From positions 1-31,166 of the IMG/VR virus record IMGVR_UViG_3300030388_001434: DNA of 31,166 nucleotides; one strand, written 5' to 3'. Both the position numbers and the translations under genes were made by a program. Below the pieces are notes generated by a model. That model did no database searches and was not told the origin of the DNA. It saw nothing but the letters and a program-made list of their open reading frames with translations. Shown piece after piece: positions 16,463 to 25,795 of this stretch. The stretch's first letter is position 1; every line of letters begins with the position of its first letter. Source of the stretch: a virus.

Positions 16463-17044
16463 TTAACCGTTACCGTTATTTTCTATCTTTTCCGAATCTT
16501 TAAATTCTTTCTTAATTCGTATCTGGTGTTTTGTTACCCATGCTTTGTTATATTCGGTATCTGCAAAGAGCTTAGAGAATCCAGTGATATGCTTTAACCT
16601 AAGCAACTCATCAGGTTCCATCCCTAAGTGGTTACATACCTCTTCATCCTTCCAACCGTTATCAAGCATAGAGAATACCATACTGGACATGCCACTTACT
16701 GAGTGCTGTCCCCTTGCCCTATTGTGCCTAACTGTAGCGGCCATTCTTTCATTAATATCTTTCTTGATTACAACTATTGGAACCCTACCTTGAGTGGTGT
16801 CAAATATATCCTTGTTGTTCTTACAGGTAAAGTATCTGTGGAAGCCGTCAACAATCACATACTTCTTTTTTTCTTCATCGTAGATTGTAACTATAGGCTG
16901 TGTATAACCATCGTGCTTGATTGAGGTATGTAGCAATTTCATCTCTTGCCCTGCAACTGAGTTAGGGTTGTAGTCGTTTGGCTCTACGTCATCAACAGAA
17001 ACCCATAAAACATCGCTAATTGGTTGGTTTGGTATATCACTCAT
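16463..17044 (-). CDS. IbrB-like ParB/Srx-domain protein
   Basis: 193 residues. A ParB N-terminal (ParB/sulfiredoxin) fold is visible: 'VDDVEPNDYNPNSVAG', 'HDGYTQPIVTIYDEEKKK', 'YVIVDGFHRYF' (the nucleotide-binding box), then 'TVRHNRARGQHS' and a helical part with 'DGWKDEEVCNHLGMEPDE'-like HTH character. IbrB, first described with IbrA as an activator of eib genes in E. coli, has this domain, and the two are encoded together. Here it overlaps the IbrA-like gene by 8 bases. ParB-fold phage proteins can be NTPases or nucleases; the substrate is unknown. Confidence 0.8.
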   Translation of the reverse strand: MSDIPNQPISDVLWVSVDDVEPNDYNPNSVAGQEMKLLHTSIKHDGYTQPIVTIYDEEKKKYVIVDGFHRYFTCKNNKDIFDTTQGRVPIVVIKKDINERMAATVRHNRARGQHSVSGMSSMVFSMLDNGWKDEEVCNHLGMEPDELLRLKHITGFSKLFADTEYNKAWVTKHQIRIKKEFKDSEKIENNGNG

Positions 17045-18215
17045 GGGTAGTGCCTCTCTGATGTGGCTTTATGAACCTAAGGTCTCTCTCTGGACGATTC
17101 CAGTTTATTTCTAACCCCCTTTTGAATTTAAGAAAATTAATTGTTTCTGGTCTACCAAGAAAGTTGGATATTTTTGCAAACTCAAAATCATTGGCAAGTA
17201 TCCCTAGTATCTGGGTTTTGTACATTTCATGGATGTTATTCATATCACTAAACTTTCCATCCATCCATAAATGCTTTTTCTCTAGCTTTTTCCTTATGCC
17301 ATCATCTTGTATTAGATTGTCGCAAAGGTGGTCTCTGTACTCCCTCCAATCTTTAAACATAAACGGCAACTCATTAGCCCTAAACATTTCATTTTTTTTC
17401 ATATGCTTAGTTTGATTAATGCCTTTAAGTCTTTTAGTTAACGCATTCCAAGTGTCACCCTCTAGCTCATGCAAATAAAATAACTGATCTACAGCCGTTT
17501 CATGGTGAAGGTTGCTCACCCGCATTTTTATTGGGGCTATCCCATACCTATAAAACTCGTCATATATTTTGCAGTAATCCCAACTGTGGTCGTGAATTGC
17601 TTTCCAAATATCGGTATAGCTCCAATCATACAAAGGATAGAAAACATAATGGCCTTGCTTCTCATCGTAGACCTTGCCATAGGTTATATCTTTATAGGTA
17701 GCCCCATTAGTCAAACCTGCTCGTCTGTTTGGGCTTTCCTCTGCTCTGACACCCCCTAGTAAAGCAACTGACTTACCCTTGTAATGCTTTGCCAGATACT
17801 TGGGAAACATATTATAAAAGCGATCAGTACCGTAAGTATTTTCTTTGATGCTTATAGGGTCTTTCTCCCTCATGTGTTCTTCATTTAAATCCCAGCAGTT
17901 CAACCAAGGGTAATCCATAGTGGTCGCATTAAATAATTTGATAGGCACCTGTAGCCAGTGAGGGGTCACTTCGTCGCGGTACATGACCCTTTTAACGTAA
18001 TCAACAACAGCTTGCCACTCGGCCTCTTGGTCAAGCATCATCACTGTAAGGGGTAATTTGCCCTCTTTCTCAGCAACTAACAGCGCCATTTCAAGCGTTA
18101 CGGTGCTATCTTTGCCCCCACTAAAGCTAACTACCACTTCATCAAACTCTCGGAACAAGAAAGTAATTCTTTCAATGGCTTGGTCAAATACGTTATCTTT
18201 TAGAAAAATTTTCAT
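17037..18215 (-). CDS. IbrA-like PP-loop enzyme (PAPS reductase/ATP pyrophosphatase family)
   Basis: 392 residues. The PP-loop 'VVSFSGGKDSTVTLEM' (about 29-44) binds ATP as in PAPS reductases and thiolation enzymes; 'ALLGGVRAEESPNRRAG' and 'YPLYDWSYTDIWKAIHDHSW' are typical of the IbrA (DUF3440-type) subgroup. The C-terminal 120 residues are helical and basic, unlike classical CysH, and no CysH-type C-terminal catalytic Cys motif is seen. It overlaps the second methyltransferase-like gene by 4 bases and the ParB-like gene by 8. Members could adenylylate and sulfur-modify a nucleic acid or act as regulators; the phage role is open. Confidence 0.85.
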   Translation of the reverse strand: MKIFLKDNVFDQAIERITFLFREFDEVVVSFSGGKDSTVTLEMALLVAEKEGKLPLTVMMLDQEAEWQAVVDYVKRVMYRDEVTPHWLQVPIKLFNATTMDYPWLNCWDLNEEHMREKDPISIKENTYGTDRFYNMFPKYLAKHYKGKSVALLGGVRAEESPNRRAGLTNGATYKDITYGKVYDEKQGHYVFYPLYDWSYTDIWKAIHDHSWDYCKIYDEFYRYGIAPIKMRVSNLHHETAVDQLFYLHELEGDTWNALTKRLKGINQTKHMKKNEMFRANELPFMFKDWREYRDHLCDNLIQDDGIRKKLEKKHLWMDGKFSDMNNIHEMYKTQILGILANDFEFAKISNFLGRPETINFLKFKRGLEINWNRPERDLRFIKPHQRGTTHE

Positions 18216-20420: not shown

Positions 20421-20466
20421 AAATTATGTAGAGAGAAAGAAACCAACCCATAAAAGGTGCTTGAAA

Positions 20467-21495
20467 ATGTTAAATTTACCAGTAATTAGCAACAAGAGTT
20501 TCGGAATTGAAGTTGAGTTTGTTGGCGCTTGCCCTAGGCACGTTGCCCAAGTTATAAACAGCCTTGAGGGTGTTGAATGTTCTTATGCTGGCTACACTCA
20601 CCTTACAACTAGCTACTGGAAAGTTGTCTACGATGGCTCTTTAAGCGGTGTTCGCGGCCATGCTGGTGAGCTGGTTAGCCCAATTCTTAACGGTGTTGAG
20701 GGTGTTAGAGAGTTAGAGCGTGTAATTGAGGCGCTCAATTCTGTAGAAGGCGTTACTGTAAACCGTAGCTGTGGTTTGCACGTTCATTTAGATTGCCGTG
20801 AAATGAACATTAACGAAATCAAAACTACCTATGAGCGGTACTCAAACCATGAAGAGCAAATTGATCTTTGTATGCCCCGCTCTCGCAGAGGAAGCCCTCG
20901 CTGGTGTGCCAGCACTGCAAGCGTAAAGAACGCTGTTAAACGCGCAACGTGTAAGCCTAACGCGGCTAGAGCCGCAGAGCGTTACTACAAAGTAAACCTC
21001 ACTAACATAGCCAGCAGAGGCTCTATTGAGTTTCGCCAGCATAGCGGAACAACTGAGTTCAAGAAAATTGTGAACTGGCTTTCTTTCCTAATGCAGTTTG
21101 TTGAGAGTAGCATCCAGATGGCTGGCTCAACAGCGGTCAAGCCTAGTGCATGGTATGCACAGCTTAAAACTTTAGTAGGAAAGTGGGGCGGTGATTTTAG
21201 TTATAGCAAGTCTACTAGGAGCTGGAATGTTGTTAAAAACGGAGTCTTAGTAACTAGGCTGTCTAATTGCCAAATCTCAGAGCTATATGTTAGCGGTTCT
21301 GCAATGAAAGCAAAAGGTTTGCGCCCATTGCACCAGTTAGAGAACCTGCTAGAAGTATACGGCCTCCCTTACTCTGAGCTTATGGCCGCTGTAAGCAACC
21401 CTGTTACAGTCTCAGAAAATGATCAAGGCGTTTACCACGGCATAACTACCCAAATCCAAGATTACCTGAGAGAGCGCCAAGAAGAGCTTTCTTAA
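20467..21495 (+). CDS. Amidoligase-family (COOH-NH2 ligase, glutamine synthetase-like) enzyme
   Basis: 342 residues from the ATG at 20467 (AAGGTG 7 bases upstream; an in-frame TTG at 20461 is too close to that site). Amidoligase_2 motifs are present in order: 'FGIEVEFVG' (12-20), 'DGSLSGVRGHAGELVSPIL' (56-74), 'SCGLHVHLDC' (101-110), 'ERYYKVNL' (about 176) and 'GSIEFRQHSGT' (about 189). These correspond to the metal/ATP-binding Glu, His and Arg residues of the glutamine synthetase fold. The family is predicted to join carboxylates and amines into amide or peptide links. Its partner gene downstream is a gamma-glutamylcyclotransferase, so a gamma-glutamyl-type bond is a plausible product. Confidence 0.88.
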   Translation: MLNLPVISNKSFGIEVEFVGACPRHVAQVINSLEGVECSYAGYTHLTTSYWKVVYDGSLSGVRGHAGELVSPILNGVEGVRELERVIEALNSVEGVTVNRSCGLHVHLDCREMNINEIKTTYERYSNHEEQIDLCMPRSRRGSPRWCASTASVKNAVKRATCKPNAARAAERYYKVNLTNIASRGSIEFRQHSGTTEFKKIVNWLSFLMQFVESSIQMAGSTAVKPSAWYAQLKTLVGKWGGDFSYSKSTRSWNVVKNGVLVTRLSNCQISELYVSGSAMKAKGLRPLHQLENLLEVYGLPYSELMAAVSNPVTVSENDQGVYHGITTQIQDYLRERQEELS

Positions 21496-21530
21496 ACCCA
21501 AATTAAACAACCCAAAAAGGAAATATCAAG

Positions 21531-21962
21531 ATGAATACAATAACTGAATACTTATATGGGGCTTATGGCTCCAACCTTAACAAAGACCAGATGGAGTTCA
21601 GATGCAAGAACGCTACGCCTGTGAAAAGCTATACGCTGAAGGGACACGCGCTAAAATTTAGAGGGGTTGCCGATGTAGAGGTATCTACAGATGGAAGCTC
21701 TGTTCCACTAGGATTGTGGAAGATAACAAAAGATTGTGAAAAGAGCCTTGATAGATACGAAGGATACCCTAACCTGTACGTTAAAAAGTTTATTGAGACA
21801 GAGCATGGCTTAGTTATGATTTACATTATGCGAAACCAAGATAGCCTATACCCACCCTCCAACTACTACCTTGACGGAATTGCTACAGGATATTATGATT
21901 TCTCGCTAGACAACAGAAAGCTCAAAGATGCTGTTACAGATAGTTATTTAAACCAGCAATAA
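21531..21962 (+). CDS. Gamma-glutamylcyclotransferase-like protein (AIG2/GGCT fold)
   Basis: 143 residues. The fold signature 'YGAYGSNLNKDQM' (9-21) binds the gamma-glutamyl group, and Glu77 in 'LDRYEGYPNLYVKKF' is the expected catalytic acid. These enzymes release 5-oxoproline from gamma-glutamyl amines or peptides. AAGGA lies upstream, and the gene starts 35 bases after the amidoligase stop, so the two form one transcription unit ended by a strong terminator. In amidoligase gene clusters GGCT proteins are thought to reverse or trim the amide bond. The cellular target (peptidoglycan, polyamine or protein tag) cannot be read here. Confidence 0.85.
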   Translation: MNTITEYLYGAYGSNLNKDQMEFRCKNATPVKSYTLKGHALKFRGVADVEVSTDGSSVPLGLWKITKDCEKSLDRYEGYPNLYVKKFIETEHGLVMIYIMRNQDSLYPPSNYYLDGIATGYYDFSLDNRKLKDAVTDSYLNQQ

Positions 21963-23060: not shown

Positions 23061-23395
23061 TATTTTCTCTCCGTTTTTATTAAGTATTTAATATCATGTA
23101 TCACGTTTTCGCTTATCTGGCTGGTTGTATATCTTAAGACTCGCCACCCACCCATCATTGCTGTGTTGTACTTAATCAGATCAGCAGAATACCCTGACCC
23201 TCTTGTATGCCGTCCATTAGCATAAACACCCCCCTCAACCTCAACCGCAATTTTTAGCATTGAAGGAAAGTCCCCTATCACAAAGTCAAACCGCCACTTT
23301 CTTATATCGTGAAACCTAAACTCTCTGTGATAAGGTATTTTGTAGTGCCTAAGCAATATGCAAAGCGTTTCCTCGCCTTTTGAACTAGCGGCCAT
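23060..23395 (-). CDS. PD-(D/E)XK/Vsr-like small endonuclease
   Basis: 111 residues from the ATG at 23395 (GGAGGG 7 bases upstream), overlapping the helicase stop. The core 'KWRFDFVIGDFPSMLKIAVE' then VEGGVYANGRHTRG gives the D...E-x-E arrangement of the Vsr/DUF559 nuclease fold, and 'KYNTAMMGGWRVLRYT' completes it. Such stand-alone nucleases are common in phage replication modules, where roles in junction resolution or mismatch nicking are proposed. Confidence 0.75.
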   Translation of the reverse strand: MAASSKGEETLCILLRHYKIPYHREFRFHDIRKWRFDFVIGDFPSMLKIAVEVEGGVYANGRHTRGSGYSADLIKYNTAMMGGWRVLRYTTSQISENVIHDIKYLIKTERK

Positions 23396-25097
23396 TACCA
23401 CGCCCTCCGTATCCGTAATCTTCGTTAGGAGGCTCTACAAACGTCCTACTGGCAAAGTCAAAGTTAAACGTAGCCTCGCCTATCTGTCCGTACATTCCTT
23501 GCTCTCTAATCTTCCTCGTTATCACTTGAATACTGTTGTTATCAAAATCTCTATGAACCACTACCACCGCATCAGCTTGGTTGTGCCAGTGAGCCGCGCC
23601 ACTAATATCGTATGCGCTGGGCGCTTGGTATCCGTTGTTCTCTTTTTGTAGCTTGGTAGGATGGGCAACAACCCACGTTGTAATATCGTGCATCTTACAA
23701 AACCGCTTGCACTTGCTAATAAAATCTCGGATATGCTCGTCTTCCCTATAGCTACCCTTTCTACTTGCATCAACCTCGTTATAAGGGTCTATAACAATGC
23801 CATTGCATCCGTACTTTTGTATGCTCACCTTGGCAAGCTCAAGAATCTTATCCACGCTGGGTATATGCTCTCTGGTTTCAATAAAGAAAAAATGCTTTTG
23901 TATCCAGCGCATACCTTCGGTTGCCTCCTCCTCTGTCATTCGCCCATTGAAGCCTTGGTCAAAAGGTTTGCCAGTAAGCATTTGCAACAACCTCCTGATA
24001 TGCATTTTTGTGGAATGCTCTGGAGAAAACATTACAAATTTCCAATCGTGGTTTTTTGCAAGCTGTATCAAGCACTGGTCTAAAAATGTACTCTTGCCGT
24101 GGTTCGGGATGCCTGTCCAAACATGGAATGTTCCCTTCATAACCTTGTAAATTTTATCAAGGTTTGCGTACCCAACATTTACAGGCTTATCGTAATTGCC
24201 TCTGTATAAGTCCATCACCTCATTGTAATAAGTGCCTACCGTATAAAGCCCATCAACTGGACAAGGCCGCGCATTAGTTATCAGGTTGTGCAAGTATTCC
24301 TTGCCATGCTTTATAAGAACATCGTTAGCGTCTTTGCAATCTTCTGGAGGAACCACATACCAGCACTTTACTTTTCCATATCTATGCATCAGCTCCTTCT
24401 TTAAATTGTCACCAGCACCATCAGCATCACAAAATAAAACAATCTTATTTGCTTTTAGTGGATGGGTTTGTAAGCACTGAAATCTCTTGTCGTTTTCCTT
24501 GTAGGAGGTTTTAGCTGGCGCACCATCTGGCAAAGTAGTCACGCATGTAAACCCGCATTCGTGAACGCTCAAGGCATCCATTTCACCCTCTACAAAAATC
24601 GCCACATTTGATTCAGCCACCGCTTTGTAATTATATAAAGATTTCACTGGGTCTTTGCTTTGCTTGAATCTCTTATCTTTATGCCTGTATTTTATATTGT
24701 CACACTGCCCTGACTCCCCATTGTAAGGAAAGCCTATCCATTCATCATTTTCAGAAAATACCTTAAATGCTTCATAAGTCTCTTTTGAAATACCCCTCTT
24801 CTCAAAATAATCATCTAAGAAAGTTGAGGTGTTTGCGATGTTAGGCGTAAAAGATTTTCTCTGAGGAACTGTTCTTTTTTGTGTGCCAGTTAATGCGCTT
24901 TGCTCCATTACTCCTCCCTTGTTTTCGCAGTGGTGACAAAAGAACACAACCTTATCGTGAGATATTTCCACCGACATTGGCCTATCATGTGAGTCGTGAG
25001 GTGGTTGGCACTCTGGACATTTTATTTTGTGGTTTCCTTCATCTAAGTGGCCTATTTTAAGGCCATGCTTTTCAAACGCTTCATCCAGCAAGGTCAT
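23385..25097 (-). CDS. Bifunctional DNA primase-helicase (T7 gp4/Twinkle-like)
   Basis: 570 residues from the ATG at 25097, which has AAGGAGA upstream; longer frames run back into the initiator-like gene. Zinc-binding primase domain: Cys27, Cys30, Cys54, Cys57 ('KCPECQPPH', 'FFCHHCENKGG'). Toprim: Glu170 ('VAIFVEGEMDALSV') and Asp224/Asp226 ('KIVLFCDADGAGDN'). RecA-like helicase: Walker A 'WTGIPNHGKSTFLDQ' (about 327-341), Walker B 'GIVIDPYNEVDASR', H4 region 'WVVAHPTKLQ' and 'ISGAAHWHNQADAVVVVHRD'. It would synthesise primers and unwind DNA at the phage fork. It overlaps the initiator-like gene by 17 bases. Confidence 0.93.
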   Translation of the reverse strand: MTLLDEAFEKHGLKIGHLDEGNHKIKCPECQPPHDSHDRPMSVEISHDKVVFFCHHCENKGGVMEQSALTGTQKRTVPQRKSFTPNIANTSTFLDDYFEKRGISKETYEAFKVFSENDEWIGFPYNGESGQCDNIKYRHKDKRFKQSKDPVKSLYNYKAVAESNVAIFVEGEMDALSVHECGFTCVTTLPDGAPAKTSYKENDKRFQCLQTHPLKANKIVLFCDADGAGDNLKKELMHRYGKVKCWYVVPPEDCKDANDVLIKHGKEYLHNLITNARPCPVDGLYTVGTYYNEVMDLYRGNYDKPVNVGYANLDKIYKVMKGTFHVWTGIPNHGKSTFLDQCLIQLAKNHDWKFVMFSPEHSTKMHIRRLLQMLTGKPFDQGFNGRMTEEEATEGMRWIQKHFFFIETREHIPSVDKILELAKVSIQKYGCNGIVIDPYNEVDASRKGSYREDEHIRDFISKCKRFCKMHDITTWVVAHPTKLQKENNGYQAPSAYDISGAAHWHNQADAVVVVHRDFDNNSIQVITRKIREQGMYGQIGEATFNFDFASRTFVEPPNEDYGYGGRGNGR

Positions 25098-25491
25098 TTT
25101 TTGTTCTCCTTCTTGTTTGTGGGGGGTTTCTAATATGTATAGGTAATGTATTGGAGGACGCTGGTGTCCTAGGGGGGTGGACACTGGTGGCCTGAGTAGG
25201 GTGGCCACTGGTGTCCGCAGGGGGGTGGACTCTGGTGTCCATGCCTAACTTATATAGGTTGGTTGTTCCCAATCTTTTTTGAACTGTAATATACTCAAGC
25301 TCCTCAAGAGAAGCGATGCACCTACGCACTGATCTATCAGATACTCCGCATATTTCTGCAAGGTGTTTTTCAGATGGGTAGCACTTATGAGTTCCCTTTC
25401 TCGCATAGTTTGCAAGCATAAAAAGAACTAGCTTTGTGGTTGGGGTGGGGCAAGGTAATAACCTAACCCAATTTATTGCGTCTGTACTCAT
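25081..25491 (-). CDS. Replication initiator-like winged-helix protein (lambda O-like)
   Basis: 136 residues. N-terminal winged helix: 'PTTKLVLFMLANYARKG', then 'PSEKHLAEICGVSDRSVRRC' and 'SLEELEYITVQKRLG', as in phage O/DnaD-type initiators. The C-terminal part (about 84-120) is a low-complexity Pro/Thr/His region with an 8-residue repeat (DTRVHPPA, DTSGHPTQ, ATSVHPPR) encoded by a 24-bp DNA repeat that looks like an origin array. The stop overlaps the primase-helicase start, as expected for an initiator feeding a helicase. A palindrome covers its ribosome-site region. Confidence 0.75.
   Translation of the reverse strand: MSTDAINWVRLLPCPTPTTKLVLFMLANYARKGTHKCYPSEKHLAEICGVSDRSVRRCIASLEELEYITVQKRLGTTNLYKLGMDTRVHPPADTSGHPTQATSVHPPRTPASSNTLPIHIRNPPQTRRRTKNDLAG
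25161..25248. repeat. Iteron-like 24-bp tandem array inside the initiator gene (candidate origin)
   Basis: CTGGTGTCC-type units start at 25161, 25184, 25208 and 25232 (spacing 23, 24, 24). Each full unit carries an inverted repeat. In unit 1 it is GTGTCC with GGACAC; in unit 2 both arms have changed together to GTGGCC and GGCCAC. Iterons inside an initiator gene are the arrangement of lambda ori in gene O. Moderately AT-rich DNA (TATATAGG region, about 25250-25300) lies beside it. Confidence 0.6.
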
Positions 25492-25520: not shown

Positions 25521-25727
25521 TTACAAGAGATAAAAGTCGTTTGGAGAAACATTTCCATCAGTGGCTTTATGGATGACTTTCATATCTTCTGGTCTAGGGA
25601 TTCTTTGTCCACTACACCATTTTACCAAAGCGTGATAACTAAAGTTAGCAGAATGAGAATTAGCGGCAATTTCTAAAAACTGCTTTTGAGTCATTTTATT
25701 TTCTTTTAGCCAAGCTGATAGTTTCAT
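25521..25727 (-). CDS. Cro/YdaS-like small repressor
   Basis: 68 residues starting MKLSAWLKENKMTQKQFLEI, an HTH with an insertion ('AANSHSANFSYHALVKWCSG') and a terminal 'IPRPEDMKVIHKATDGNVSP', the pattern of Cro-type phage regulators. It is the first gene on the left of the divergent early promoters near 25.75 kb, the usual place for Cro. It probably binds the 100-base gap and switches early transcription. Whether a CI-like partner exists is unclear; no long repressor is seen in the window. Confidence 0.75.
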   Translation of the reverse strand: MKLSAWLKENKMTQKQFLEIAANSHSANFSYHALVKWCSGQRIPRPEDMKVIHKATDGNVSPNDFYLL

Positions 25728-25766
25728 AGTAACGCCTTTAGTTAACGCATGGTATCAAGAAACGGC

Positions 25767-25795
25767 TTGCATATCAACCCAATTTGTCCCATAAT
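25767..25795 (+). promoter_or_regulatory. Rightward early promoter (recombination genes)
   Basis: TTGCAT (25767-25772), 17-base spacer, CATAAT (25790-25795), then AAGGTG and the ATG at 25828. On the opposite strand TTGATA and TACCAT with 17-base spacing give a candidate leftward promoter for the Cro-like gene, overlapping this one. Confidence 0.55.

Follow-up and report, generated by a model that had tools for sequence, protein, structure and literature searches.

Does the array of repeats inside the replication initiator gene of this virus mark the place where its genome begins to be copied? To place the array in its genomic context, we analyzed the whole 31,166-base virus record (referred to here as the window), which carries the genes of a tailed phage. 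Capsid, protease, portal, and terminase genes occupy the left part on the minus strand, and genes for a PDDEXK nuclease and an ERF recombinase lie in the right part on the plus strand. The initiator gene (25081..25491, minus strand) is followed in the same direction by a primase-helicase gene (23385..25097, minus strand), whose start overlaps the last initiator codons and whose 570-residue product, read from the ATG at 25097, contains Toprim and DnaB_C domains (phrog_239, 2.1e-79). Upstream of the initiator and also on the minus strand, a small gene (25521..25727) encodes a Cro-like helix-turn-helix protein (HTH_3, below the cut-off; phrog_35, 1.4e-4), a possible candidate for the regulator of an initiator/helicase operon. 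GC skew, suggested in the preliminary description as a check on the origin, is −0.140 in the left minus-strand genes, +0.075 in the left plus-strand genes, and +0.057 in the right plus-strand genes; because it tracks gene strand, it is uninformative on origin position and gives no independent support for one, and we dropped it. A plus-strand island of two ORFs (20461-21962), opposite in strand and in GC skew to the genes that flank it, encodes an Amidoligase_2 protein, and a minus-strand gene (17037-18215) encodes a PAPS-reductase-domain protein that is possibly an auxiliary metabolic gene.

The initiator is a protein of 136 residues comprising a winged helix-turn-helix (residues 1-84), a linker encoded by the repeat array, and a C-terminal NDLAG. 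Profile searches place its DNA-binding domain among the HTH_36 and PHROG O-like replication initiators (Pfam HTH_36, 4.9e-13; PHROG replication initiation/O-like, 4.2e-19 and 1.1e-16), and this O-like match, together with the Toprim and DnaB_C gene that follows, bears out the earlier proposal of an O-like gene ahead of a primase-helicase. We detected no sequence relation to lambda O itself by hhalign (probability 1.4), no lambda O family is among the Pfam matches listed to an E of 0.1, and homology to lambda O by sequence was set aside. Sequence searches of solved structures returned only weak, generic winged-helix matches, and the best Foldseek matches are likewise generic winged helices (E 0.01-0.02); they include entries whose titles name an initiator or a Rep-DNA structure (4pt7, 5kbj), which is not decisive. 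In the structural model, the block-mean pLDDT is 91-97 for residues 1-80 and below 50 for residues 86-91 and 93-105; the helix domain is predicted with confidence and the array-encoded linker is predicted to be disordered. The initiators also share a conserved N-x-L/I-A-G tail at the C terminus (LAG in 55 and IAG in 14 of 75 distinct proteins; 25081-25098 in the window), present too in L031, a long relative whose gene stops before the next start codon, and this tail may be a candidate helicase-contact peptide.

Within the gene, we located four 14-bp near-palindromes on the coding (minus) strand with the consensus GGAC(N6)GTCC, namely site 1 (GGACACCAGAGTCC, 25227..25240), site 2 (GGACACCAGTGGCC, 25203..25216), site 3 (GGCCACCAGTGTCC, 25179..25192), and site 4 (GGACACCAGCGTCC, 25156..25169), separated by steps of 24, 24, and 23 bp and followed by an AT-rich element. 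Site 2 is the third counted from that element, and sites 3 and 4 form a two-site core beside it. Tandem repeat detection gave a TRF score of 96 over 25156-25240; the self-repeat score of the initiator gene, 26, was reached by none of 200 codon shuffles. The motif GGMCACCAGTGKCC, with up to three mismatches allowed, matches the window 10 times against 3.2 expected, and eight of these matches are the two strands of the four sites. The preliminary description had reported an inverted repeat in each full unit, as the four dyads confirm, and four units at 23/24-bp spacing that all keep the reading frame of a helix-turn-helix gene; the spacing and the location stand, and the common frame holds for the first three units (MDTRVHPP, ADTSGHPT, and QATSVHPP) but not for the fourth (RTPASSNT), which lies in another frame because the last step is 23 bp. 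This frame relationship is general: the last two sites occupy frames 2 and 1, in that order, in 74 of the 75 distinct arrays, and frames 1 and 0 in one.

Directly adjoining the repeats is the AT-rich tract TCCAATACATTACCTATACATATTAGAAAC (25126..25155, minus strand), a putative unwinding element that reads WATAC-WWWA in relatives. Of the 30-bp steps near the array, the one beginning at 25126 is the least stable (98.4th percentile of the window), and the repeats themselves rank among the most stable DNA. Compared with 60 such tails, the AT region of lambda scored 20.3 against about 15.1 for its shuffles (1/300 each), a likeness that may lie in shared DNA or in a shared peptide (TKD-TK).

To understand how this layout compares with that of other phages, we turned to relatives of the initiator and to searches with DNA patterns. 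A protein search yielded 13 related loci; two near-copies have four sites and the other close relatives three, the more distant of these (L004-L013) having three rather than four, and the 23-bp step is found in all. The three-site, DNA-only pattern GGN10CC-N10-GGN10CC-N9-GGN10CC-NNN-WATACWWWA matched 37 IMG/VR stretches (14 contigs among them already known from the protein searches), all within winged-helix initiator genes as judged by reading the printed proteins, and the same pattern with one base added to the second spacer matched none. Reduced to two sites, the pattern found 96 stretches (80 of them listed). Over both scans, the pair lies inside an ORF matching the initiator HMM in 90 of 92 loci; in the other two, L147 and L172, the motif begins 105 and 29 bases into the contig, and the initiator ORF is missing because the contig start cuts the gene. 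The HMM test took 92 of the 93 skeleton loci, L008 being judged by reading its protein, and loci missed by the text filter for initiators were judged by their printed protein and re-tested with the HMM. The skeleton patterns were built from arrays already known and impose the 24/23 spacing; independent support for that spacing comes from the relatives found by protein and from the empty result of the pattern with the extra base. For co-variation and site counts, the 75 distinct arrays were collapsed to 60, among which the GG/CC rule counts two sites in 36, three in 23, and four in one, several arrays being degenerate (e.g. L026). More distant initiators (L031, L032, L033, L040, and L043) have, at the corresponding position, repeats of the GGGGTGACA type with a spacing of 23 or 24 bp, together with a similar start of the AT element, the same layout with a different, wider dyad. 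The skeleton is not described in the accessible portions of the literature consulted, a body of work in which subscription journals lay mostly outside scope.

On the strength of these comparisons, the repeats are almost certainly the initiator-binding sites of a putative origin, and the array with its AT-rich neighbor is very probably the replication origin of the phage, an origin of the lambda ori kind inside the gene of its own initiator. A lambda-type origin had been proposed for this locus, and the conserved, initiator-specific skeleton, the frozen synonymous sites described below, and the AT-rich element all argue for it. As the available text of one study describes, the lambda origin is situated midway along O and each iteron is an inverted repeat (PMC7466680); the corresponding part of another describes O dimers that bind the iterons and form an O-some (PMC3985674). 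As in lambda, the window has several repeats, four dyads, inside the initiator gene, an AT-rich tract directly after them, and the gene of a replication partner next, in this case a primase-helicase rather than a lambda P-type loader. The annotated lambda iterons (NC_001416) start at 39034, 39054, 39078, and 39101, a spacing of 20, 24, and 23 bp; the period, thought earlier to be unlike that of lambda, is shared in its last two steps and differs in the first (24 versus 20 bp). The two systems also differ in the half-sites (GGAC..GTCC with a 6-bp gap in the window versus ATCCCTC....GAGGGA in lambda), in the length of the initiator (136 versus 299 residues), and in the downstream gene (primase-helicase versus P). 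Two iterons adjoining the AT-rich region suffice for lambda replication in vitro, according to the passage in which PMC7466680 cites older work, and the two-site core beside the AT element in the window recalls this sufficiency.

The arrangement has counterparts beyond lambda. In SPP1, the origin oriL likewise lies inside the initiator gene, gene 38, as given in the accessible text of PMC5499656. Vibrio phages D279 and 1.205.O, Pectobacterium phage ZF40, and Aggregatibacter phage S1249 have O-like winged-helix initiators that belong to one broad family with that of the window and carry lineage-specific repeats right after the helix domain; these repeats have other sequences and a period of 21 in D279 and ZF40, and by eye we did not notice the GG-N10-CC skeleton in any of the four phages. 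The two Vibrio phages, which are cultured, have GTGAC...GTCAC dyads at the same position in the gene. Iteron plasmids, like the window, place a series of initiator sites next to an AT-rich region. Their direct-repeat iterons bind monomers, generally in helical phase, in the portion of PMC5043065 that treats them, whereas the window has dyads spaced 23-24 bp apart inside a gene. We then scanned for self-repeats (30 shuffles in the first run) in 44 distinct winged-helix initiator genes, obtained from 53 loci, two of them truncated, that collapsed to 40 and were joined by lambda O, ZF40, D279, and the window. A significant self-repeat is present in 28 of the 44, with a period of 21-24 in 22 of these, versus one of 126 other ORFs of the same loci, and for this reason we regard intragenic repeats, with lineage-specific sequences, as usual in winged-helix initiators. 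The 16 initiator genes without a significant self-repeat should be read with the knowledge that the scan also misses two-site arrays visible by eye (L026 and L029).

The best surviving alternative to an origin, which we nevertheless consider improbable, is that the sites are an operator through which the initiator represses or roadblocks its own gene, with replication starting elsewhere. Operators are often dyads, and the evidence for binding, from co-variation and from the recognition helix, is equally compatible with this function. The array, however, lies inside the gene near its end and not at a promoter. Our promoter scan returned two matches versus 2.4 expected in the scanned stretch and was set aside as positive evidence; its only same-strand match (25749-25777), which precedes the Cro-like gene, fits the consensus weakly. 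The AT element at a fixed distance, the constrained synonymous sites, and the multi-site arrays at 23/24-bp spacing fit an origin better than an operator, although the two functions could coexist.

The half-site classes can be compared with the initiators encoded around the sites. On the initiator tree, for which 74 of the 75 arrays were used, half-site class changes 6 times versus 15.6 times in shuffles. The arrays that are wholly GGAA...TTCC (L113, L174, and L177) fall together in a single supported clade that branches from within the GGAC lineages; in L201, a fourth GGAA array, the gene is truncated by the end of its contig, and this array stands outside the residue comparison. Among 65 of the 74 initiators, the nine of the GGGT class, a separate clade with an altered, longer helix, being left out, the column of residue 57 has Thr in all three GGAA...TTCC initiators and Arg in the other 62, and that of residue 58 has His in the trio and Cys, Ser, Ile, Asn, or Ala in the others. 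These two columns alone separate the trio from the remaining 62, and both residues fall in the modeled helix 52-64, which we take to be the recognition helix of the winged helix. Because the trio is a single clade, the Arg-to-Thr change counts as about one event, and searches with the GGAA and GGTY classes for further specificity switches added one new locus, cut at the contig end. A natural reading is that Arg57 would read the guanine opposite half-site position 4, a contact lost when the pair becomes A:T. Sites and initiator thus appear to have changed in concert. The case for binding by the surrounding initiator is built from sequence comparison, and another phage or host protein might bind the sites instead; we hold this to be very unlikely, as the half-site classes track the initiator tree and one change of class goes with the two residues that alone distinguish the trio, both in the presumed recognition helix.

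The dyads themselves co-vary, and the pattern bears on whether they act as DNA or as RNA. Over 145 sites in the 60 arrays, position pair 3/12 is complementary 103 times versus 75.9 expected (sd 3.6) and pair 4/11 121 times versus 93.9 (sd 3.2), the shuffle-expected values serving only as a guide among lineages that are kin; pairs 5/10 and 6/9 show no co-variation. Each repeat is a dyad in its outer pairs, and because only these co-vary, we assign half-sites of four bases with a six-base gap. The signal arises between lineages (GGAC, GGAA, GGTY, and GGGT) and not inside arrays, where half-sites vary independently. The preliminary description had read the arms of its second unit as having changed together, but GTGGCC and GGCCAC (plus strand) sit in two adjacent dyads, as right and left arm respectively, across the spacer. 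Statistical support for pairing of either kind is lacking when right arms are shuffled within the 60 arrays, with 224 pairings across the spacer versus 215.4 expected (fraction at or above the observed, 0.067) and 351 within the dyad versus 352.8 (fraction 0.69). For the C/G variant at positions 3/12, the complementary partner lies in the same dyad in L102/L122 and in L136, and on the other side of the spacer in L117/L119, L121, and the window lineage; the excess of pairing across the spacer is marginal, unexplained, and not counted as evidence.

RNA hairpins in the initiator-helicase mRNA, controlling its translation or decay, would account for inverted repeats that stand before the helicase start codon, yet we judge this explanation even less probable than binding by another protein. 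With co-variation confined to the outer pairs, the stems would be 4 bp long with 6-base loops, and coding-strand mismatches are A.C or C.A in 117 cases versus G.T or T.G in 29, most at the inner, non-pairing positions. No Rfam family matches the element, and hairpins leave both the fixed 23-bp step and the change in the recognition helix unexplained.

That selection acts on the DNA of the array is shown by synonymous sites. Among 10 close relatives, synonymous differences at identical residues amount to 1274 of 3086 (41%) in codons 1-83, the helix domain, versus 52 of 864 (6%) in codons 84-118, a contrast reached by none of 5000 column permutations. The synonymous comparison called for earlier finds the array frozen. 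The same peptide on unrelated DNA, which had been named as the case against an origin, is contradicted by its reverse, unlike peptides on a common DNA skeleton, as in L028/L113, which keep the array layout with other letters (GGAAGCTGGCTTCC) and a different peptide. By this comparison, conservation acts on the DNA and not on the peptide. That the repeats were selected as a peptide linker, with the DNA pattern a by-product, has in its favor the shared frame of three of the four units and is of negligible probability given the other frame of the last, peptides that differ between relatives on a persistent skeleton, the frozen synonymous sites, and the predicted disorder of the linker.

The comparisons establish the sites and their conserved spacing, selection on the DNA, the co-variation of outer half-site bases from lineage to lineage, the AT element, and, by sequence, what the two proteins are. 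For a lambda-type origin in the initiator gene, we infer that binding, melting, helicase loading, and the start of replication occur at the array. In this mechanism, initiator dimers would bind each 14-bp dyad, with helix 52-64 contacting the 4-bp half-sites (GGAC...GTCC). Dimers on neighboring sites would interact, chiefly at the two-site core beside the AT element, and wrap the DNA, and the wrapped array would then promote melting of the AT element. The primase-helicase of the phage itself, encoded directly downstream, would be loaded at the melted element. This sequence of binding, neighbor interaction, AT opening, and helicase entry is modeled on lambda as set out in the available parts of PMC3985674, PMC5043065, and PMC7466680.

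The family as a whole may follow a broader principle, which we put forward tentatively, as a possibility somewhat short of probable: a fixed chassis of intragenic 14-bp dyads 24/23 bp apart with ATAC-WAAA, in which half-sites (GGAC, GGAA, GGTY, or GGGT) are swappable and co-evolve with the recognition helix. Because one gene holds both site and reader, the two are hard to part by recombination, and lineages could therefore become orthogonal origins, or incompatibility types, among related phages. If true, residue 57 (Arg with G:C and Thr with A:T at half-site position 4) would supply the first letter of a code that can be read.

Judged by comparison, this putative origin is new in sequence and well defined, and the lambda-type intragenic origin is a kind already known. 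Its recurrence here suggests that the 24/23 iteron layout extends beyond lambda. With site and recognition helix changing as a pair, a switch in initiator-origin specificity becomes testable. It is seldom that an origin is located in an uncultured phage; here, a pattern of DNA alone singles out putative origins in about ninety environmental contigs with hardly an error.
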